Below, in pieces: positions 5,406 through 16,400 of a DNA stretch of 33,499 nucleotides. Each line of letters opens with the position of its first letter. The first letter of the stretch is position 1. The stretch comes from a virus. The stretch covers positions 1 through 33,499 of the IMG/VR virus record IMGVR_UViG_3300034117_000671. One strand, written 5' to 3'. A program made the translations under genes and the position numbers. The notes under the pieces are model-generated. The model saw only the letters and a list, made by a program, of their open reading frames with translations. It made no database searches and was not told the origin of the DNA.

Positions 5406-5701
5406 TATTCTTTAAATTTAATTACATCTTTTAACTCAAAGTTACTAATGTTTACGTTTTGGTCAATCGTTTCTTTTGGTTTGCCAAATAAATGTTCCGC
5501 AATAAATATCTGTCCTCTTTGAGTTTTTGATAAATCCTTTGCAAATTCTATTTTTGCTTCATCATCGGTTTCAACTGATTTAAGGCTTTTTAAAGCACTC
5601 AAAAATATTTCGTTTACCTTTTTTTCTTGCGCCACAGATTTACGCCCTGCACCTTCCCTTTTACCTCCATTTTGCTTTTTAACCTCTTGTTGCTGTTCCA
5701 T
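5405..5701 (-). CDS. terS: Terminase small subunit-like DNA-binding protein
   Basis: A 98-residue protein starting with a Gln/Lys-rich tail and the motif 'GGKREGAGRK' (residues 12-21), common at the N-terminus of phage small terminases and related DNA-binding proteins. The rest is helical. Position two genes upstream of terL supports a packaging-initiation role. No complete helix-turn-helix is obvious, so the name is provisional. Confidence 0.6.
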   Translation of the reverse strand: MEQQQEVKKQNGGKREGAGRKSVAQEKKVNEIFLSALKSLKSVETDDEAKIEFAKDLSKTQRGQIFIAEHLFGKPKETIDQNVNISNFELKDVIKFKE

Positions 5702-6875: not shown

Positions 6876-7082
6876 TTACCTTAAAATTATACTTCCGTTA
6901 CTAAACGGGCAGTATTTTATTTTTGATTTATCGATTAATTCAGATGCATCACGTTCTAGTTTTTCTTTTATAGCTTGACGCACAAAATGACTTACTTTTA
7001 TTTTTCTACTTCTTAATTTATCTAAAGTTTGCTTTTGAACTTTGCTAATTTTTAAAGTAATAACTTCGGTGTATAATTCCAT
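6876..7082 (-). CDS. Ribbon-helix-helix (CopG/Arc-like) DNA-binding protein
   Basis: A 68-residue protein. A basic strand 'EVITLKISKVQKQTLDKL' is followed by 'RKIKVSHFVRQAIKEKLERD', a good ribbon-helix-helix: one DNA-contacting strand, two helices, and a Ser-His-Phe-Val turn. Such proteins bind operators as dimers. It sits outside the cassette array, directly after its low-coordinate half-site, and could repress the early unit or the nearby late promoter. Target unknown. Confidence 0.65.
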   Translation of the reverse strand: MELYTEVITLKISKVQKQTLDKLRSRKIKVSHFVRQAIKEKLERDASELIDKSKIKYCPFSNGSIILR

Positions 7083-7120
7083 ATTTTAGTGCTTTTAAGA
7101 TATAATTGTAATACTTTTCA

Positions 7121-7142
7121 TGCGTCAAGCGAGGAGTTACCA
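7121..7142. repeat. attC-like half-site, low-coordinate end of array
   Basis: Arm 'GCGTCAAGC', spacer, then core GTTACCA (7136-7142). No matching left arm lies at the expected 130-base distance. The core flank pairs with 7804-7818, the far end of the adjacent cassette. Confidence 0.6.
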
Positions 7143-7163
7143 GCAATGCCAGAACCGACACCG

Positions 7164-7883
7164 CTAAAACAACCGTAATTGTGATTTAAAGTCATTAAAA
7201 CGCTTTTCTTGTTTCTCATAATATTCTTGGTCTATTTCAAATCCTACAAAGTTAAACCCGCCTTTATATGCTGCAATTCTACTGCTCCCACTTCCTAAGT
7301 GGGTATCTAAAATCAAATCGTTTGGATTTGCGTAATTGTGAAGCAACCAATCATATAAGGCAATAGGCTTTTGTGTGGGATGAAATCGAACTTCTTTATT
7401 TTTCATGTCCTGTTGTCTAAAACCATTCCAAGTGTATTTAAACTTTCTTACTGCTGTTTTAAATGATGTCCACGCTATTTCACAATCAGCTTGGTCTCCA
7501 AATCCGTCCTTATCCCACACAATCCAACAACTGCTATTTTTATTTATCCTTTCAATAAAATGATTTGCTCCCCAAACGATTTGATTTTTAGATACTCTTT
7601 TCAGTTCGCTAAAATACTCTTCACTTGGTGGTTCATTATCCCAATCTTTAATAGTGTATTTCTTTTGCGAATGATGCCTTGTATGTATTTTAGCACTTGC
7701 CTCTCCAATCCCATAAGGCGGGTCAACTATTGCCAAATCAAAATGGTTATCGTTAAAGCGTTTTAATGCCGTTACACAATCTTCTAAATACACCTCCGAA
7801 GAAGGCACTGCTGGTAACACGTGCTTTGCAAAAGCGGGGGTTTCCGTTTTCAAAGAAACATTATCGTTAAATATATCATTCAT
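7164..7883 (-). CDS. Cassette 1: beta-class DNA methyltransferase
   Basis: A 239-residue protein. The order is motif IV 'DPPYGIG' (54-60), 'HPTQKP' (168-173), then SAM-binding motif I 'DTHLGSGSS' (from 193). This is the beta-class order of adenine-N6/cytosine-N4 methyltransferases. The first 22 or so residues come from attC-like site 1: the ATG lies in the site's loop and translation crosses the core at Val22-Leu23. The enzymatic body starts near 'VYLEDCVTAL'. No restriction partner is nearby, so it probably protects phage DNA from host restriction. The target sequence is unknown. Confidence 0.85.
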   Translation of the reverse strand: MNDIFNDNVSLKTETPAFAKHVLPAVPSSEVYLEDCVTALKRFNDNHFDLAIVDPPYGIGEASAKIHTRHHSQKKYTIKDWDNEPPSEEYFSELKRVSKNQIVWGANHFIERINKNSSCWIVWDKDGFGDQADCEIAWTSFKTAVRKFKYTWNGFRQQDMKNKEVRFHPTQKPIALYDWLLHNYANPNDLILDTHLGSGSSRIAAYKGGFNFVGFEIDQEYYEKQEKRFNDFKSQLRLF

Positions 7884-7942
7884 CTTTCTAATTAAATTTA
7901 GTGGTTAAAAGCCCCGCCTTCGCAAAGCACCATACGTTAGCA
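7812..7942. repeat. attC-like site 1
   Basis: Left box TGGTAAC (7812-7818), arm GTGCTTTGC; right arm GCAAAGCAC (a perfect 9-bp match), then box GTTAGCA (7936-7942). GCGGGG and CCCCGC pair further in. The loop holds the start codon of the cassette 1 methyltransferase. Confidence 0.85.
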
Positions 7943-7948
7943 AACAGC

Positions 7949-8398
7949 TTATGACGTAGTTTGTAATAATTCAGGGTTTTCAAAAATATTGCCTATTACT
8001 TCATATTCGTAATTCCAATGTTTTCTCAATTTAATGTAACTACTTCCGTATTCCATTACGAAAGCATTTACTTCTTCTGTGAAAATTATTTTATGAGTAG
8101 TTGTCATTGTTTGTCCTGTCCAATTTCCAACGCTTCTTTTATAAGTTGCAATGTCGCCTTCAAAAATTTTATTTCCGTTTTTATCTAGCAATCCTGTAAA
8201 CTGCATTATATTTTTACAATCTGAATAATGATGCATAAAACTTCCCAACGTTTCTAAATCAGGTTCGCCTTGTATAGCCATATAATTTCCTAAAGTTGAT
8301 TCTATCCACGCTCTAAAACAAAGCCGATTTGCTAACACAGGTTTAACAAGATTGCCACTTTCGGTTTGATTTTCAGGTGATTTTGTATTTGTTGACAT
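7949..8398 (-). CDS. Cassette 2: YopX-family protein
   Basis: A 149-residue protein. From residue 27 it matches the YopX layout: 'LCFRAWIES', 'MQFTGLLDKNGNKIFEGDIA' near the centre, and 'YEVIGNIFENPELL' at the end. YopX proteins are common in phages and prophages; their biochemical role is unknown. The family normally starts at the 'FRAW' strand, so the first 25 residues are extra. They are encoded by the loop and left arm of attC-like site 2, with the core crossed at Val-Leu-Ala (residues 21-23). The stop is seven bases from the core box of site 1. Confidence 0.85.
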   Translation of the reverse strand: MSTNTKSPENQTESGNLVKPVLANRLCFRAWIESTLGNYMAIQGEPDLETLGSFMHHYSDCKNIMQFTGLLDKNGNKIFEGDIATYKRSVGNWTGQTMTTTHKIIFTEEVNAFVMEYGSSYIKLRKHWNYEYEVIGNIFENPELLQTTS

Positions 8399-8463
8399 AA
8401 GTTATTAATTTAAAGTTTTGCGAGTTTTTAAAGGCAACCTCGTTAAGCCTGATAACGTTAGCT
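8330..8463. repeat. attC-like site 2
   Basis: Left box TGCTAAC (8330-8336) with an 18-base arm through 8356. The right arm starts 'GGCAACCTCGTTAAGCCT', then box GTTAGCT (8457-8463). About 15 of the 18 arm positions pair. Spacers are 2 and 6 bases. The loop has 'gttattaatttaaagttttg' at 8401-8420. Confidence 0.88.
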
Positions 8464-8469
8464 GATATG

Positions 8470-8832
8470 CTACGAACCGAGTGCCAACTTAATAGCTTCA
8501 TTCAATTCATTTTCCATTAGGACATATCCGTGCTTGCCTTCTTCAATTAATTGCTTGTTTAGTTTTTGAACATCTTTTAAAGCGTTTTGACAAGCCTTTA
8601 ATAATTCAGGTGCAGAAGCTATTAGTCTTGCATTTCCTTCACGATAAGTTCCAGTTACTAATTTAGGTTCGCCATCAATAATTTCTTTTCGCTGTGGCAT
8701 TGGATACCAAGCCAAAGTTGCTATTGTTTCGCCATCTTCTGTATAAACTTGCGTTGCATACATACCATCAGGGTCATTAGGTATTTCTCTGTGTGAAAAG
8801 TGCCATTTATTAGGCGTGAATTTTTGTTCCAT
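8470..8832 (-). CDS. Cassette 3: phage protein with an 'ASAPELL' motif
   Basis: A 120-residue protein. An N-terminal beta-type part ('WHFSHREIPNDPDGMYATQV', 'ETIATLAWYP') is followed by 'NARLIASAPELLKACQNAL', a signature of small accessory proteins found in many unrelated phages. Function unknown. Unlike cassettes 1 and 2 it starts outside the site, at its own ATG 37 bases before the left box of site 3, so its leader is not site-encoded. The stop is seven bases from the box of site 2. Confidence 0.8.
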   Translation of the reverse strand: MEQKFTPNKWHFSHREIPNDPDGMYATQVYTEDGETIATLAWYPMPQRKEIIDGEPKLVTGTYREGNARLIASAPELLKACQNALKDVQKLNKQLIEEGKHGYVLMENELNEAIKLALGS

Positions 8833-8868
8833 TTTTTAAAATTATTTACGTTTGACAATAAGCACATC

Positions 8869-8999
8869 AGCTAACATAGTGTTGCCAAAATGGGGGCAGA
8901 CGTGCATTAAATGAACATTTGTACTGTGTTCAGCAGTAGTGCTTTTAATGGGCTTTTGTGCTAATAATCCCCCACTTCGGCAACACTCGACCGTTATGC
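8869..8999. repeat. attC-like site 3
   Basis: Left box AGCTAAC (8869-8875), arm 'GTGTTGCCAAAATGGGGG'; right arm 'CCCCCACTTCGGCAACAC', then box GTTATGC (8993-8999). GTGTTGCC/GGCAACAC and GGGGG/CCCCC pair perfectly. Spacers are 3 and 6 bases. The loop differs from site 2, as expected of a variable terminal structure. Confidence 0.9.
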
Positions 9000-9005
9000 G
9001 ATAGC

Positions 9006-9272
9006 TTATGTAGTGCTATCAACAGAATCCTCGTATAAAGGTTTTCCAGTAAAAGGACAGAATTTAGCGTAAACCATCATTTCTTTGTACGATTTGGAAA
9101 AGTTTTCTCCTTTTTTAGTTCTATACATACAAGGAATCATTAAATGTCTGCCAGTTCCACCTAACCAAAAAGATGAAGCATTAAAACCAGCTTCAGGGTC
9201 ATTTGTTTTTTCTTTTACTTGTTTTTCAATTTCTTCAATTTGTTTCCAGTTTTCTAAAATTTTATTTTCCAT
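9006..9272 (-). CDS. Cassette 4: small accessory protein, unknown
   Basis: An 88-residue protein. The helical N-terminus ('ENWKQIEEIEKQVKEKTND') is followed by a compact part ending in 'AKFCPFTGKPLYED'. A 'CPFTGKPL' ending occurs in small phage proteins. Its single cysteine cannot by itself form a zinc knuckle; Cys49 and His43 are the only other obvious ligands. It starts at its own ATG 24 bases before site 4. The stop lies seven bases from the box of site 3. Confidence 0.7.
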   Translation of the reverse strand: MENKILENWKQIEEIEKQVKEKTNDPEAGFNASSFWLGGTGRHLMIPCMYRTKKGENFSKSYKEMMVYAKFCPFTGKPLYEDSVDSTT

Positions 9273-9295
9273 TTGTCGTTGAATTTAAAGCCATC

Positions 9296-9432
9296 GCATA
9301 ACAGCAATTTGCATCAATGCCTTTGGCTTGGTTATTAATTTAAAGTTTTGTTTTTATTTGTTGTGTTCGGTCATAAACCGAAAGATTAGTCTTTATTTGC
9401 AAAGGCACTAATGCAAGCCGTAGCCGTTATGT
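9296..9432. repeat. attC-like site 4
   Basis: Left box GCATAAC (9296-9302) and arm 'TTTGCATCAATGCCTTTG'; right arm 'GCAAAGGCACTAATGCAA', box GTTATGT (9426-9432). The loop contains 'gttattaatttaaagttttg' (9331-9350), identical to site 2. In this site no cassette start uses it. Confidence 0.88.
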
Positions 9433-9439
9433 GAGATTG

Positions 9440-9793
9440 TTACGAAAACTCTTCGCCACAAACTCCGCATCTCAAAAGATTATTGCCTATAAAAGCTCTT
9501 TGTTCTTTCGGATGTTTGCAATCATTTTCTGCATAATCGTAATAATTTGTAAAATAATCGCTACTTGAAACTTGTTTTAAAATATCTTCATCTTTTTCAG
9601 GAAAAAATAACCAACTTGCCGACAAATCAGAAGAATATCTTTGCCATATATTAGCACATTCAAAAATATTAGCAATTAAATTTTCTTCAATCAATAATTG
9701 TTTTTGAAGTCTGTATAAGTTAAAAATATCTTCTTTGGTATAATATGCATCTTCTTGTAAAAATACGCCTGTATTTTGATTTAGTGTTTTCAT
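9440..9793 (-). CDS. Cassette 5, gene 1: zinc-ribbon-like accessory protein
   Basis: A 117-residue protein. Residues 1-85 are helical and aromatic-rich ('YYTKEDIFNLYRLQKQLL'). The C-terminus has 'DCKHPKEQRAFIGNN' followed by 'RCGVCGEEF', a likely Cys/His zinc ribbon of the type seen in many short phage proteins. Function unknown. It is the last of three genes in this cassette; the start is preceded by GATTAAATTAAAAATAA, a typical leader for this genome. The stop is eight bases from the box of site 4. Confidence 0.7.
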   Translation of the reverse strand: MKTLNQNTGVFLQEDAYYTKEDIFNLYRLQKQLLIEENLIANIFECANIWQRYSSDLSASWLFFPEKDEDILKQVSSSDYFTNYYDYAENDCKHPKEQRAFIGNNLLRCGVCGEEFS

Positions 9794-9808
9794 CTGTTTA
9801 TTTTTAAT

Positions 9809-9892
9809 TTAATCTTTATTCCAATACCAAGTAATCAATAACATAAAAAGTATGATACCAATAACAATTCCAATAATAATTCCTAAAATCAT
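9809..9892 (-). CDS. Cassette 5, gene 2: 27-residue membrane peptide
   Basis: A single-pass membrane peptide: 'MILGIIIGIVIGIILFML' then 'LITWYWNKD'. Isoleucine/glycine steps fill one transmembrane helix, with a short charged tail. It starts two bases after the stop of the 37-residue gene and ends 15 bases before the start of the zinc-ribbon gene. Such tiny membrane proteins in phages may affect membrane enzymes, exclusion or lysis timing; no function can be assigned. Confidence 0.6.
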   Translation of the reverse strand: MILGIIIGIVIGIILFMLLITWYWNKD

Positions 9893-9894
9893 AA

Positions 9895-10008
9895 CTATTC
9901 TTTTTCTTTAATAAACATTAATACTTTGTTTGTTTTTACATCGTAAATATAAGTTCCTAAACCACATTGACCAAAACCATAATCAAAATAAACTCTAATT
10001 CCTTTCAT
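9895..10008 (-). CDS. Cassette 5, gene 3: 37-residue peptide
   Basis: A frame of 37 codons beginning 'MKGIRVYFDYGFGQCGLGTY', with a beta-like composition and a charged end ('FIKEKE'). It has a plausible A/T-rich leader and tight spacing to the next gene. It is the first gene after site 5 and starts 32 bases outside the site. Not recognised. Confidence 0.55.
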   Translation of the reverse strand: MKGIRVYFDYGFGQCGLGTYIYDVKTNKVLMFIKEKE

Positions 10009-10039
10009 AATAATTTTTGTTTTAAAAACCCACAACCTC

Positions 10040-10172
10040 ACATAACAAGTGTTTGGCAAAAAAGCGGGTTCGGTTATTAATTTAATGTTTGTTTTGTGTC
10101 TTTAAATTTTAGGCTTAATCGAAGTTTTAGGTTTGTTTATCCGCTTCTTCGCCAAGCACTCGAACGTTATAG
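10040..10172. repeat. attC-like site 5
   Basis: Left box ACATAAC (10040-10046), arm 'GTGTTTGGC' and GCGG; right arm CCGC and 'GCCAAGCAC', box GTTATAG (10166-10172). The arms pair with one mismatch in nine; spacers are 2 and 6 bases. The loop motif gttattaatttaatgtttg is at 10073-10091. Confidence 0.9.
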
Positions 10173-10186
10173 GTAAGGCTAATAAC

Positions 10187-10330
10187 CTACTCGGAAGTAA
10201 ATCTTGTCCATTGACCTTGACCATATTTTTCGTTTATTTCTTTTACAACTTCTTCTCGTTTTGATTTGTCGGTGTAAAAACTTCCTATAAATTTTTCGTG
10301 ATTAAATACGTTTATCCAATTCCAATACAT
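10187..10330 (-). CDS. Cassette 6: small protein, unknown
   Basis: With the ATG at 10330 this is a 47-residue protein ('MYWNWINVFNHEKFIGSFYT' then a helix 'KREEVVKEINEKYGQGQW'). A longer frame to a TTG at 10402 would run through the right arm of site 6 and is less likely. The first 14 or so residues come from the degenerate left half of site 6. Compact alpha/beta composition; family not recognised. Its stop is 15 bases from the box of site 5, further than in most cassettes. Confidence 0.55.
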   Translation of the reverse strand: MYWNWINVFNHEKFIGSFYTDKSKREEVVKEINEKYGQGQWTRFTSE

Positions 10331-10419
10331 ATATCTTAGTTTTGTGTTTTTATAATTAGTGATTAATCCGAAGTTTTGGAATACTTTTCCCAACCTCGCC
10401 AAGCCGAGAACCGTTAGAT
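10285..10419. repeat. attC-like site 6, left half degenerate
   Basis: Right arm 'CTCGCCAAGCC' and box GTTAGAT (10413-10419) are intact. A left box CCTATAA (10285-10291) sits at the expected distance and matches the start of its cassette, but the final C is changed to A and the left arm no longer pairs. The loop resembles that of site 5 ('GTTTTGTGT', 'GAAGTTTT'). Confidence 0.65.
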
Positions 10420-10425
10420 GAAATT

Positions 10426-10671
10426 TCAGTAAGACCCGCCAATAGTTCTCGGAAGAGATTTTACTAATTCTTGAATTTCATCACTATTTAATTTAATTGT
10501 AATACCGTTTTTACTAATTACCATTTTTAATCCTTCGCTCCAATGGCAATATTTAGGAGTATTCTCATTTATAATTGAGTAAGTTCCAACGCTAAAAGAA
10601 ACTTCATCTAACAGCGGTTTTGTGATATTTCCGTCTTGGTCTTGAACTGTAATATTTGTTTTTGCTTTCAT
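10426..10671 (-). CDS. Cassette 7: small protein with site-encoded leader
   Basis: An 81-residue protein. Residues 1-21 ('MKAKTNITVQDQDGNITKPL' and Leu) are encoded by the loop and left arm of site 7; the core is crossed at Leu20-Leu21. The body contains 'GLKMVISKNGITIKLNSDEI', which looks like a beta-hairpin followed by a helix. Function unknown. The stop is seven bases from the box of site 6. Confidence 0.7.
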   Translation of the reverse strand: MKAKTNITVQDQDGNITKPLLDEVSFSVGTYSIINENTPKYCHWSEGLKMVISKNGITIKLNSDEIQELVKSLPRTIGGSY

Positions 10672-10743
10672 AATTTGTCTTAAATTTATAGATTTAGGTG
10701 TGTTTTTTCGGCAACATCACAAAGCCTCAGAACGCCATTAGTG
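10606..10743. repeat. attC-like site 7, altered core
   Basis: Left box ATCTAAC (10606-10612), arm 'GCGGTTTTGTGATATTTCCG'; right arm 'CGGCAACATCACAAAGCCTC' pairs at about 16 of 20 positions. The right box reads ATTAGTG (10737-10743) instead of GTTAGTG, so the base before the exchange point is changed. The stop codon of the cassette 8 methyltransferase lies inside this box. Confidence 0.82.
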
Positions 10744-11532
10744 GCAATACTCCGAAGCCCTACGAACAGCGACATCGTAATATTGTTTTTCCTTTTCTAT
10801 TCCAATTGATTTGCGATTTAATTTAATACAAGCCAAGATTGTTGTTCCTGAACCCATTGTGTTGTCCAATACCATATCTCCTTCGATTGTGTATGATTTT
10901 ACAAGCATTTCAAGTAAAGCAAGTGGTTTCTGTGTTGGGTGTATCGTTCCATTAATCTTTGTTTTCTGTTTATCTGAAGCAAAAACTTGTACACTTCTTG
11001 GGTATCGGTCAGTTTCTCCACCTCCACTTACATCTTGTTTTACTTTGCCATATACTTCTGTTTTGTTACAAACTTCGGCTTTCTTGGTGTAGGTATTTAC
11101 AGGTTTATGCCCTTCTGTTTTCTGTGGATTAAACTTTGGAGTTTTATTGTAAAATACTAAAATGTTTTCGTGTGCTTTCATAGGCATTTTCTTTGCATTA
11201 AAATATCCAGTTGCTTGTGTTTTTTCCCAAATCCATTCGTATTTTAACCATTCCAAATTTGAGCAACCAAGCACCTTATCAAATGGTGTTTGTGCAAATA
11301 AAATCACTACTCCATTTTCTTTTAGTATTCGTTTGTATTGCTCCCAAAGCTTATTCAAGTCTAAAACAGAATCCCATTTGCAGTTAGTAGTTCCATAAGG
11401 TAAATCGCAAATAATAGCATCAATTGATTTGTCCTCAATAAAAGGAAAAACATCGAAGCAGTCTGCGTTCACAAAAATACTGCCACTAACACGGGTTTGG
11501 CAAAATGGCTGTTCAGTAATTCTATTTGACAT
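10738..11532 (-). CDS. Cassette 8: beta-class DNA methyltransferase
   Basis: A 264-residue protein. Motif IV is 'DLPYGT' (43-48), then a target-recognition region of about 150 residues, 'HPTQKP' (198-203) and SAM motif I 'DNTMGSGTT' (223-231). This is the beta-class order of an adenine-N6 or cytosine-N4 methyltransferase. The first 14 residues are encoded by site 8, with the core crossed at Val15-Ser16; the enzyme fold probably starts at 'IFVNADCFDVF'. The TAA stop is made by the core box of site 7. It is clearly different from the cassette 1 enzyme, so the two probably mark different sites to block host restriction. Confidence 0.87.
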   Translation of the reverse strand: MSNRITEQPFCQTRVSGSIFVNADCFDVFPFIEDKSIDAIICDLPYGTTNCKWDSVLDLNKLWEQYKRILKENGVVILFAQTPFDKVLGCSNLEWLKYEWIWEKTQATGYFNAKKMPMKAHENILVFYNKTPKFNPQKTEGHKPVNTYTKKAEVCNKTEVYGKVKQDVSGGGETDRYPRSVQVFASDKQKTKINGTIHPTQKPLALLEMLVKSYTIEGDMVLDNTMGSGTTILACIKLNRKSIGIEKEKQYYDVAVRRASEYCH

Positions 11533-11618
11533 TTGTTCTTAATTTTTAAGTTTAGTAATTCTATTCAAGTTTTGTGGTTCAAAGCCCCGCCCTGACGGCA
11601 AACCGAGAACCGTTACCT
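11484..11618. repeat. attC-like site 8
   Basis: Left box CACTAAC (11484-11490), arm 'GGGTTTGGCAAAATGGC'; right arm 'GCCCTGACGGCAAACC', box GTTACCT (11612-11618). The 'GAGAACC' spacer is also found in site 6. The loop carries the start codon of the cassette 8 methyltransferase. Confidence 0.82.
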
Positions 11619-11624
11619 GCCATA

Positions 11625-11888
11625 TTAAGCGACAGGAGTGCCCACATAATTTTCGACAACAAACGCCTTGAAATCCTTAAAGTTTTCTTGAACTGTTTCA
11701 GCATTACAAATACCTGCATTAAATAGTCCTTTGTATCTTGGGTTAAATTTTGTGTATGGTAGACCTTTTGATTTTAGAAAAGACGCTGTAATTTCTGAAA
11801 CAGTTTTTGTCGTTACTTTTAATCCTTGACTTCTCAGCCAACATTCTATGCCGTAGCAGGCGTTTGTTTTTCTCTGTAAATTACTCAT
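11625..11888 (-). CDS. Cassette 9: 87-residue protein, unknown
   Basis: From the ATG at 11888 the protein starts 'MSNLQRKTNACYGIECWLRS' and continues with 'TASFLKSKGLPYTKFNPRY', a mixed helical protein with four cysteines. A longer frame to a GTG at 11915 would add nine residues from site 9, but that frame is closed by a TAA in the site's loop and no ATG lies there, so the internal ATG is preferred. Family not recognised. The stop is seven bases from the box of site 8. Confidence 0.65.
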   Translation of the reverse strand: MSNLQRKTNACYGIECWLRSQGLKVTTKTVSEITASFLKSKGLPYTKFNPRYKGLFNAGICNAETVQENFKDFKAFVVENYVGTPVA

Positions 11889-11906
11889 TTGATTAAGAAA
11901 TACGGC

Positions 11907-12037
11907 AGGTAACACGTGTTTTGCAATATGACGGGTTTAGTGCAAAATTCAGCGTTAGTGCCTTGATTAAACATTTGTATTAAATTGAAATTGTAGTGCT
12001 TTGAAACCGCCACCTGCGTAAAGCAAAAACGTTAGTG
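11907..12037. repeat. attC-like site 9
   Basis: Left box AGGTAAC (11907-11913), arm 'GTGTTTTGC'; right arm with GCAAAA directly before box GTTAGTG (12031-12037). CGGGTTT pairs with AAACCG further in. A second GTTAGTG in the loop (near 11953) is preceded by GCAAAATTC and could be an older or alternative right end. Confidence 0.78.
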
Positions 12038-12043
12038 ATAATT

Positions 12044-12346
12044 CTACCAATCGATGTCACTATCACTTAATTTTGATTTTTTGAAATGTTTTTTATTAAA
12101 CATTACAGTTTTTAAATGAATATTGTTAAATGCTTTCGTCATGCAATAACTAATATCCATCATTGCTTTTTTTGCTTTTAAAGTGCGTTCAACATTTATT
12201 GAAGCAACTACATCTTCGCTTTTATAATTTACCCAATCATAAACTATTGGAAGTTTAGAAATAAATTTATTTAAAGAACTATCAATAACACTCGTTTGGC
12301 AAGATTGGGTTTCAGGCTTAATTTTATATTGGTCTTGTACTTTCAT
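12044..12346 (-). CDS. Cassette 10: 100-residue protein with site-encoded leader
   Basis: The ATG at 12346 lies outside the core, and residues 1-19 ('MKVQDQYKIKPETQSCQTS') run through the half-site at 12283-12315; the core is crossed at Val20. The body is helical, then basic ('FNKKHFKKSKLSDSDIDW'). Not recognised. It is the first gene of the array in the direction of transcription and follows the 124-residue gene by 11 bases, so it is probably co-transcribed with the replication genes. The stop is seven bases from the box of site 9. Confidence 0.65.
   Translation of the reverse strand: MKVQDQYKIKPETQSCQTSVIDSSLNKFISKLPIVYDWVNYKSEDVVASINVERTLKAKKAMMDISYCMTKAFNNIHLKTVMFNKKHFKKSKLSDSDIDW
12283..12315. 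repeat. attC-like half-site, high-coordinate end of array
   Basis: Left box CAATAAC (12283-12289) and arm 'CTCGTTTGGCAAGATTGGG'. No right arm or box follows before the 124-residue gene. The flank of the box matches the start of cassette 10 (12031-12044 reversed). The arm would pair well with the right arm of site 6. Confidence 0.68.
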
Positions 12347-12734: not shown

Positions 12735-13574
12735 CTATAAAATTTTAGTCAAACTTTCATTTTTGCATTTATTGAAATAATCAATTAAAACTAATTTCTT
12801 TGCTCTTATTTCAATCTTTGCTTTTGCATCTTGATTTTCTGTATTGTTGATTAAAGCATTAATTATAGCTTTGTTTTTATTTCGTTCTATTGCATCAACT
12901 GACTTTTTTAAACCATACTCTCGCAATATTTTAGCGTGTGCATCGGTTAACTTCTTTTGATAGTATTCAGCTATTTTTGGCGTTTCTGTTGTTGGCATCT
13001 TTATTTTGCCTATTTCAACAAGTTCTTTAAATACGTGGTTAAATGGTTCTTCAACTTCATTTGTGTTTAAGTATTCAGAATATTTTTTATTAACTGCATC
13101 AATCATAATTTGGTTTTTCTCTTGTTCCGAAATTTCCATTGATTTATTTTGTATTAATGCTTGCTTATCTTGATTGTATTTTCTTAAATTATCTGCTCTA
13201 AAAGTCATAAATTTATTTAAAACATCAGAAACTACTATCGTATCTAATTGTCTAAAAATATCTTTGTGTCCAAAATCTTTAGCCGCATACATTTTAAACG
13301 CTTCTCTAATTTCCGGAATAGTTAGAAATCCAAATTTACTTTTTATAAAATCCAATATAACTAACATTTGAACTTGTAAATCTTGCTTTTCTAATTCGTT
13401 TGAAACTTTAATATTCAATAGAGTTATTAAATAATTAATCAATCCATCTTGTTCTGAATTATCGGTTACAAGTCTTATTTTTGGATAATCTTCGTTAATT
13501 ACTGCCAGTAATGGTCTTGACTGCTTCTGAACTATCAAATCTGAATTGTTGCTTTGTTGTAATTTGTTCTCCAT
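12735..13574 (-). CDS. Replication-associated protein (possible helicase loader partner)
   Basis: A 279-residue, mostly helical protein without a Walker motif. The central part ('FGFLTIPEIREAFKMYAAKD', 'HKDIFRQLDTIVVSDVLNKF') looks like a conserved block. It follows the replication initiator and overlaps it by 80 bases in another frame; the ATG at 13574 has the usual AAAAACAAAACATAACA leader, so the overlap seems real. Position suggests a helicase-loading or replisome role. Not proven by any motif. Confidence 0.6.
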   Translation of the reverse strand: MENKLQQSNNSDLIVQKQSRPLLAVINEDYPKIRLVTDNSEQDGLINYLITLLNIKVSNELEKQDLQVQMLVILDFIKSKFGFLTIPEIREAFKMYAAKDFGHKDIFRQLDTIVVSDVLNKFMTFRADNLRKYNQDKQALIQNKSMEISEQEKNQIMIDAVNKKYSEYLNTNEVEEPFNHVFKELVEIGKIKMPTTETPKIAEYYQKKLTDAHAKILREYGLKKSVDAIERNKNKAIINALINNTENQDAKAKIEIRAKKLVLIDYFNKCKNESLTKIL

Positions 13575-15509: not shown

Positions 15510-16400
15510 TTACTTTGTTTTTTCTTTTATTAATAATTGATTTTCTATTTCTGTAAATTCTGCAGTTAATCTTAAAACAACATCATCTGGGACGCTATTT
15601 TTTAACTCGTTAAATTGCTCTAATGCTTCACAATTATTTAAAAAATCAATAGTTCTTTTATCTTCTTCATTTTGGTTTAATTCGTCCAAATCCATAGGTT
15701 CATTATCTGTATATTTATAGCCCTTATCTGTAATAATAGCTTGGTCAACTTCTTGTGCTTTTTGCATTTCAATTGACAAAGGAGCAAAACCACTATTCAA
15801 ATGTAATTTAACAACCGTCTTTTTTGCCATTTTATCAAATTCATCTTTCCAATTTCCAAAACCTTTTTTATAAGTTTGCGAATATTTTTTAGCGTGTTTT
15901 TCGACTTCTGCAACGCTTAAATAATAAATACTATCAAATCCATTTAGTAACTTAAAATATGATGCGTAACCTATTATTTTATCGCTTGTTTTAGCTTTCC
16001 AGTCAAAGTGATAACCTAAAAAACTTTCATCTTCTATAAATTGTCCTTCAAATACTTCTTTAACCTCAAGTGCTTTGTATTGATTTGAGTTAATTGCTAA
16101 TTGTCTAAAACCTTTGTAACCTATTTGAAATTGTGCCTCTTTACCATAAGGAATAATATAAGCAAACCCTAAATTATTATTTATCGGTAAACCTAAACTT
16201 GTTGCAGTCAAACACGCATTAAATATAGATGCTGGTTCGCAATTTTGTAGTTGATTATTTGAATTAAATAAACTTAATGCACTTGTTATAAATTGAGTTT
16301 TACGCTCTCCTAAAACCTCCTCAATTCTTTGTTTTATAGCTGGACTTTCTAATAATTGAGAAAATCCCTTTTTTTGCGTGGTAACTTGTGTATTACTCAT
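15510..16400 (-). CDS. recT: RecT-family single-strand annealing protein
   Basis: A 296-residue protein. The RecT core includes 'FNACLTATSLGLPINNNLGF' (about 62-81), 'YIIPYGKEAQFQIGYKGFRQ' (82-101) and 'DEFDKMAKKTVVKLHL', all in the family's order. The C-terminal 80 residues are acidic and variable. RecT anneals complementary strands exposed by the partner exonuclease, supporting phage recombination and replication. It opens the recT, DUF3127, exonuclease, initiator block. Confidence 0.92.
   Translation of the reverse strand: MSNTQVTTQKKGFSQLLESPAIKQRIEEVLGERKTQFITSALSLFNSNNQLQNCEPASIFNACLTATSLGLPINNNLGFAYIIPYGKEAQFQIGYKGFRQLAINSNQYKALEVKEVFEGQFIEDESFLGYHFDWKAKTSDKIIGYASYFKLLNGFDSIYYLSVAEVEKHAKKYSQTYKKGFGNWKDEFDKMAKKTVVKLHLNSGFAPLSIEMQKAQEVDQAIITDKGYKYTDNEPMDLDELNQNEEDKRTIDFLNNCEALEQFNELKNSVPDDVVLRLTAEFTEIENQLLIKEKTK

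Follow-up and report, generated by a model that had tools for sequence, protein, structure and literature searches.

A probable integron-type cassette array without a recombinase gene in a Bacteroidota tailed phage, most likely served in trans

An array of attC-like sites in a phage that encodes no integrase raises the question of whether its cassettes move and, if so, which enzyme moves them. We addressed this question in IMG/VR virus record IMGVR_UViG_3300034117_000671 (positions 1 to 33,499, hereafter the window), whose 127-bp terminal repeat identifies it as a complete phage genome and which encodes a terminase, a portal protein and RecT (15510-16400). Ten short cassettes lie at 7137-12315, all with their genes on the - strand, and are delimited by eight complete attC-like sites of 131-138 bp, two half sites and one attI-like end (Table 1). 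A sequence-only reading of this DNA had already proposed ten gene units separated by sites and an array without a recombinase, and both proposals hold. No tyrosine recombinase (no PF00589 match) is encoded anywhere in the record. We conclude with good confidence that the region is a mobile integron-type cassette array in a Bacteroidota tailed phage, most likely served in trans.

On the + strand, the complete sites are laid out as TAAC, a spacer of 1-3 nucleotides (nt), a left arm, a loop, a right arm, about 5-7 nt and G|TTA. These spacer lengths, described in the earlier reading, recur in most sites, and the arms mostly align without gaps, with one extra G seen at site I by inspection. The nine sites of 131-138 bp that had been counted reduce to eight of exactly that length, G and K being half sites, and the element at 7121-7136 represents the attI-like end rather than an attC. 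With at least two attC sites in the R''/L''/L'/R' layout and no integrase within reach, the array corresponds to an integrase-less attC cluster (CALIN); a scan against Rfam gave no match.

The earlier reading did not note that each cassette has a start (GTTANNNNNNANNNN) complementary to its own end (NNNNCNNNNNNTAAC). The pairing covers about 15 nt, and position 11 invariably shows an A/C mismatch on the + strand, equivalent to a T.G wobble on the - strand. Arms pair within a site, and the outer boxes pair across the cassette. This rule applies to eight of the nine window cassettes in which both ends are readable, fully in 1, 3, 4, 5, 7 and 9 and nearly in 8 and 10, and such ends are expected because repeated exchange at G|TT must leave them complementary. 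A strict signature of the cassette ends occurs seven times in the window array, compared with 0.004 times per locus-strand in shuffled sequence; a scan without the position-11 rule was noisy. Of about 302 distinct cassettes in viral relatives, taken without selection for position 11, 268 share the end pair; the pairing frequency is 73% at position 15 and only 11% at position 16. The 15-nt rule was absent from a handful of class 1 cassette ends compared by eye.

Cassette movement was observed in the Baltic Sea muumi Flavobacterium phages (Nilsson et al. 2020, PMC7077304), which differ from the window phage in their backbone but have in common with it cassette ends, cassette types and a related gene of 65 amino acids (aa). 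Each carries 8-16 signature cassettes with the same type of site and its own attI-like end, and the arrays examined have a common start up to ...ATTGTAG|TTA, then a differing first cassette, with the distal cassettes largely shared. Near-identical genomes differ by exact excision of a single cassette (sniff9-1/9-2, 439 bp; snork6-1/6-2; mumin9-1/6-3), and between lillamy9-6 and lillamy9-7 one 439-bp cassette is gone from position 5637 and now stands first, at 2037, while the 3.6 kb between the two positions are unchanged. In all four pairs the junction lies exactly at G|TT and one whole attC is kept, not a hybrid. Because the attC to the left of each junction is whole, the crossover took place at R' (G|TT) on the + strand and not in the hairpin arms, and the junctions therefore fix the polarity of the sites independently of folding. 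Thus, the muumi arrays are active although they lack an integrase, and the integron-style behaviour that the earlier reading had attributed to the window's sites, with cassette gain and loss at G|TT among relatives, is found in these isolates exact to the base. In the window itself, exchange at G|TT is indicated by the complementary ends and by a shared cassette boundary.

Homologous recombination or annealing between similar hairpins could also move cassettes without any site-specific recombinase, and the window phage does encode RecT. Moreover, attC I looks like a hybrid, being similar to the relatives of cassette 8 in its left half but not in its right arm, and its fold is poor; the loops thus probably undergo homologous exchange in addition to the exchange at G|TT. 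However, annealing does not account for exact G|TT junctions with a whole attC retained in four muumi pairs, for ends that are complementary within a cassette and not across a site, or for re-insertion at an attI-like end that has only a few bases in common with attC. We consider it highly improbable that annealing is what moves these cassettes.

The muumi equivalent of the attI-like site stands before many different first cassettes, in keeping with an attI that takes up cassettes at the first position. For the window, this assignment comes from homology with L406, a contig that carries the window's terminase and the same small gene and has 43 of 61 nt in common with the window's attI flank, followed by different cassettes; the window site is therefore a putative attI. 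The array of L406 has no DNA similarity to that of the window, so that the same flank with different cassettes, which the sequence-only reading had suggested looking for, does exist; most relatives with the window's terminase have no array at that place. The start codon of the small gene is 54 nt from the first G|TT in the window, in muumi phages (L001 1397-1594, 65 aa) and in L406, and the gene occupies the position where relatives have the integrase. Its product matched no Pfam family above cut-off and might be a repressor or a recombination accessory factor.

Cassettes are also shared between phages that are otherwise unrelated. Cassette 8 has 93% DNA identity to units in viral contigs of 187, 63.6 and 29.7 kb, where the homology starts at 10738, immediately past the exchange base, and does not extend outside the cassette; one of these contigs (G002) encodes a XerA-like recombinase. 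Signature cassettes of the window type also occur in Polaribacter phages P12002L and P12002S. Two signature cassettes are also present in a 9.2-kb Flavobacterium croceum contig (L019), which could be prophage or chromosomal, and the methyltransferase of one of them is 88-93% identical in parts to that of window cassette 1.

Folding as single-stranded DNA had been proposed as a test of the sites. On the - strand, sites B, C, D, E and F gave z values of -1.9 to -3.6 (C, -2.7; D, -3.6; F, -3.1) against a background of 0.1 +/- 1.1, whereas H, I and J folded no better than shuffles, so that the expected advantage over shuffled controls was confirmed for the first group and failed for the second. 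In 137 of 160 related phage sites, the bottom strand (- in the window) forms the stabler fold, and in 15 the top strand does.

A search of the whole records behind the arrays identified a tyrosine recombinase at the attI end in three of them (other PF00589 matches were in G006 and G016). Its gene points away from the array, and 20-52 nt separate the gene start from the first G|TT. Scanning with these recombinases retrieved 80 IMG/VR contigs, of which 64 carry signature cassettes (64 of the 70 with adequate flank), always upstream and in a single orientation, and in 46 the first G|TT boundary lies within 107 nt of the recombinase gene; 10 of the 16 contigs without signature cassettes have less than 600 nt upstream. 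The enzyme is about 270 aa long, and its catalytic R, K, H, R, H and Y are invariant in 42 sequences. XerA (NF040815) is the nearest family by score, with 186-206 bits for the three phage recombinases, below the cut-off of 220, while the integron-integrase model gives 146-161 bits in two separate pieces, with a cut-off of 265. The IntI-specific insertion, which integron recombination is reported to require (PMC9668308), is absent from these array-associated recombinases: the distance from box I to box II is 86-91 residues in phages and 91-92 in Flavobacteriaceae, compared with 97-102 in Xer proteins and 133 in IntI1. Structure comparison gave Z values of 21.3 for the XerA-type 5hxy and 19.9 for the IntI 2a3v, the model resembling XerA and IntI4 about equally, so that PDB fold cannot separate XerA from IntI; in a tree, IntI1 falls on a very long branch among Flavobacteriaceae proteins, a placement that is unsure. 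The enzyme thus agrees with XerA-type and other simple tyrosine recombinases (NF040815; PDB 4a8e, 5hxy) in length, catalytic residues, best family score and top structural match, but differs from them in scoring below the family cut-off and in its genetic linkage to cassette arrays. Among isolates, the proteins that match the phage recombinase best are the integrases of Cellulophaga phage Ingeline and Polaribacter phage Freya, neither of which adjoins an array.

Homologues of this recombinase are common in host chromosomes, with a XerA-like protein encoded by 102 of the 149 genomes searched in Flavobacteriaceae and by 93 of the 296 searched in Bacteroidota. The same type of cassette lies downstream of the chromosomal gene at 13 of 20 Flavobacteriaceae loci and 15 of 20 Bacteroidota loci, the arrays mostly starting 61-145 nt after the recombinase gene. 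Since hosts have both the homologue and an array, they could supply the recombinase and serve as a reservoir of related arrays. The suggestion that a host or helper provides the enzyme is therefore likely to be right, with the change that the candidate is XerA-like, without the IntI insertion, and adjoins the same arrays in phages and in Bacteroidota. A canonical IntI from a passing host could act instead, given that in E. coli, in vivo, IntI1 was able to recombine an attC from the related Polaribacter phage P12002L (PMC9892861), which may be one of the signature sites. The IntI genes sought in Flavobacteriia hosts did not appear, however: the integron-integrase model TIGR02249 gave no match above cut-off in 149 Flavobacteriaceae genomes, a strict threshold at which no control genome matched either, so that absence is unproven. 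As the gene adjoining attI in arrays of this kind is XerA-like, we regard a canonical IntI as very unlikely to be the enzyme that moves them.

Gene polarity sets the phage arrays apart from known ones. Relative to integron cassettes, 343 of 349 phage cassette genes are inverted and 6 are canonical, whereas all 38 Bacteroidota chromosomal cassettes have canonical polarity and none is inverted. Since the phage genes face attI, a Pc promoter on the integrase side could not drive them, and expression would be local, each cassette bringing its own signals. In this regard, 143 of the 343 inverted phage genes start inside attC, as do those of window cassettes 1, 2, 7 and 8. The location of the hairpins between genes, together with these internal starts, could suggest that they are merely RNA signals, terminators or leaders repeated along the array. 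That explanation leaves the end-to-end complementarity, the G|TT excision and re-insertion and the recombinase linkage unaccounted for and is contradicted by the junctions, and we give it almost no credence. As for cargo, two of the ten window cassettes encode DNA methyltransferases and muumi arrays hold several, which makes an anti-restriction role likely.

Taken together, these data suggest a mechanism in which the mobile unit would be TT-gene-attC-G and the attC-like site would fold as a single strand (the - strand in the window), allowing a tyrosine recombinase to exchange at G|TT. Cassettes would leave the array and re-enter it, by preference at the attI-like end (7136), probably via a circular intermediate. 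A XerA-like recombinase of about 270 aa, without the IntI-specific insertion, would perform this reaction, acting on the window array in trans from a host chromosome or a co-infecting phage. The genes would read towards attI, often from their own attC loop, so that each brings its expression signals, and the cargo, which comprises DNA methyltransferases and small phage proteins, is probably of use to the phage in escaping host restriction. More broadly, we think it probable that these arrays represent an integron lineage that was overlooked because the IntI-defining domain is missing from its recombinase, and that is widespread in Bacteroidota chromosomes with canonical polarity and has been taken over by phages, viral contigs of 170-280 kb included, with inverted cassettes; the same proposal holds that phages without the recombinase use a helper and that unrelated lytic phages share an anti-restriction pool.

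Several observations weigh against this interpretation. Among recombinase contigs with adequate flank, 6 of 70 have no signature cassettes, and few contigs score with the two terminase models tried; the IMG/VR recombinase contigs could partly be fragments, prophage or misclassified. The sole functional recombination data on such sites used IntI1 and not a XerA-like enzyme (PMC9892861). Furthermore, the window array is possibly partly decayed: G and K are half sites, the exchange point at H reads ATT and H, I and J fold weakly. With no integrase in the phage, these features would fit an inherited relic that no longer recombines. Against a relic stand the perfect ends of cassettes 1, 3, 4, 5, 7 and 9, the 93% identity of cassette 8 to copies elsewhere, the activity of integrase-less muumi arrays and the different array behind the same flank in L406. 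We find a relic unlikely and retain a mobile array served in trans as our explanation.

With integrons (class 1; Vibrio and Treponema chromosomal), the system shares the order of recombinase, attI and cassettes, G|TT exchange, first-position insertion and a folded attC whose bottom strand is more stable; it differs in a recombinase without the IntI additional domain and in inverted phage genes. The window array works like an integron, although it does not qualify as one if IntI is taken as the criterion, and we regard it as a new member, and its family as a new variant, of the integron kind. CALINs in phages, including P12002L, were published in 2023 (Qi et al., PMC9892861) and likewise comprise an attC-like array without intI in a virulent phage with DNA methyltransferase cargo. 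Compared with these, the window has ten cassettes and an attI-like end, 15-nt cassette ends and genes inverted throughout, and its relatives show live excision and re-insertion in isolates and a dedicated non-IntI recombinase. The available portion of Nilsson et al. (PMC7077304) describes varying methyltransferases and plating efficiency and no cassette system, and in the open-access literature other than preprints we found no report of the recombinase-array family, of cassette shuffling among phage isolates or of the inverted polarity. With such arrays, lytic phages would have a site-specific and reversible means of acquiring, losing and rearranging counter-defence genes, a process observed at work among isolates from a single sampling site, and the clean-edged methyltransferase genes common to unrelated Bacteroidota phages would be accounted for. 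The system also breaks the working rule that an integron requires an IntI with the additional domain; detectors built on that domain would miss this lineage because its recombinase lacks it. Finally, the opposite polarity in phages and chromosomes makes cassette expression directly testable.

Table 1. Features of the cassette array and its attI-like end in the window
Feature	Position	Strand	Content	Remarks
Small gene at attI end	6876-7082	-	68 aa	Ribbon-helix-helix-like by eye only
Putative attI-like site	7083-7136	+	First exchange point G7136|TT	Flank homology to L406; muumi equivalent
Cassette 1	7137-7936	+	DNA methyltransferase gene 7164-7883 (-), starting within attC B	PF01555; 15-nt complementary ends; same-ended cassette in muumi phages
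attC B	7812-7942		Complete site	
Cassette 2	7937-8457	+	YopX-family gene 7949-8398 (-), starting within attC C	PF09643; ends pair over 9 nt only
attC C	8330-8463		Complete site	
Cassette 3	8458-8993	+	Gene 8470-8832 (-), attC D	Complementary ends
attC D	8869-8999		Complete site	
Cassette 4	8994-9426	+	Gene 9006-9272 (-), attC E	Complementary ends; related cassette ends in snusmum6-1
attC E	9296-9432		Complete site	
Cassette 5	9427-10166	+	Genes 9440-9793 and 9895-10059 (-), attC F	Complementary ends
attC F	10040-10172		Complete site	
Cassette 6	10167-10413	+	Gene 10187-10402 (-)	attC G reduced to right arm
Half site G	10413		Right arm only	
Cassette 7	10414-10737	+	Gene 10426-10671 (-), starting within attC H	Complementary ends; exchange base A, weak fold
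attC H	10606-10743		Complete site	
Cassette 8	10738-11612	+	DNA methyltransferase gene 10738-11532 (-), starting within attC I	PF01555; 93% identity to three viral contigs
attC I	11484-11618		Complete site	
Cassette 9	11613-12031	+	Gene 11625-11915 (-), attC J	Complementary ends
attC J	11907-12037		Complete site	
Cassette 10	12032-12315	+	Gene 12044-12346 (-), half site K	One end mismatch besides wobble; without right arm
Half site K	12283-12315		Left arm only	

Some features of individual cassettes and contigs are worth recording. The left arm and the matching end of cassette 6 were not found; a hattifnatt9-1 cassette with the same start end keeps both ends, and the two cassettes gave no clear alignment. 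The exchange base at 10737, which precedes cassette 8, is an A, in contrast to the G at every other exchange point, and this may block exchange there. For the backbone gene adjoining the array (12735-13574) no relatives were found; the terminase search did yield relatives.

Among the recombinase contigs, IMGVR_UViG_3300043411_001575 carries about 32 signature cassettes over 38 kb (loci L123-L125, 77.4-115.7 kb), an array that takes up more than one fifth of a 170-kb contig and in which several cassettes have the common end GTTAGTGGCAATACT. In IMGVR_UViG_3300044638_006592 (L126, about 34.4-38.8 kb), an attC subclass has about 41 nt between AAC and GTT, compared with about 120, and these reduced sites also adjoin a recombinase gene.

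Among the muumi phages, Nilsson et al. (PMC7077304) reported that those plating poorly on host LMO6 were missing a specific methyltransferase and that lillamy9-1 and morran9-1 plated on LMO6 equally to LMO9 only after growth on LMO6. Both of these phages are without the methyltransferase cassette with ends GTTAGCCGCAATACT, which is present in hemulen, sniff, snork, mumin and tooticki.

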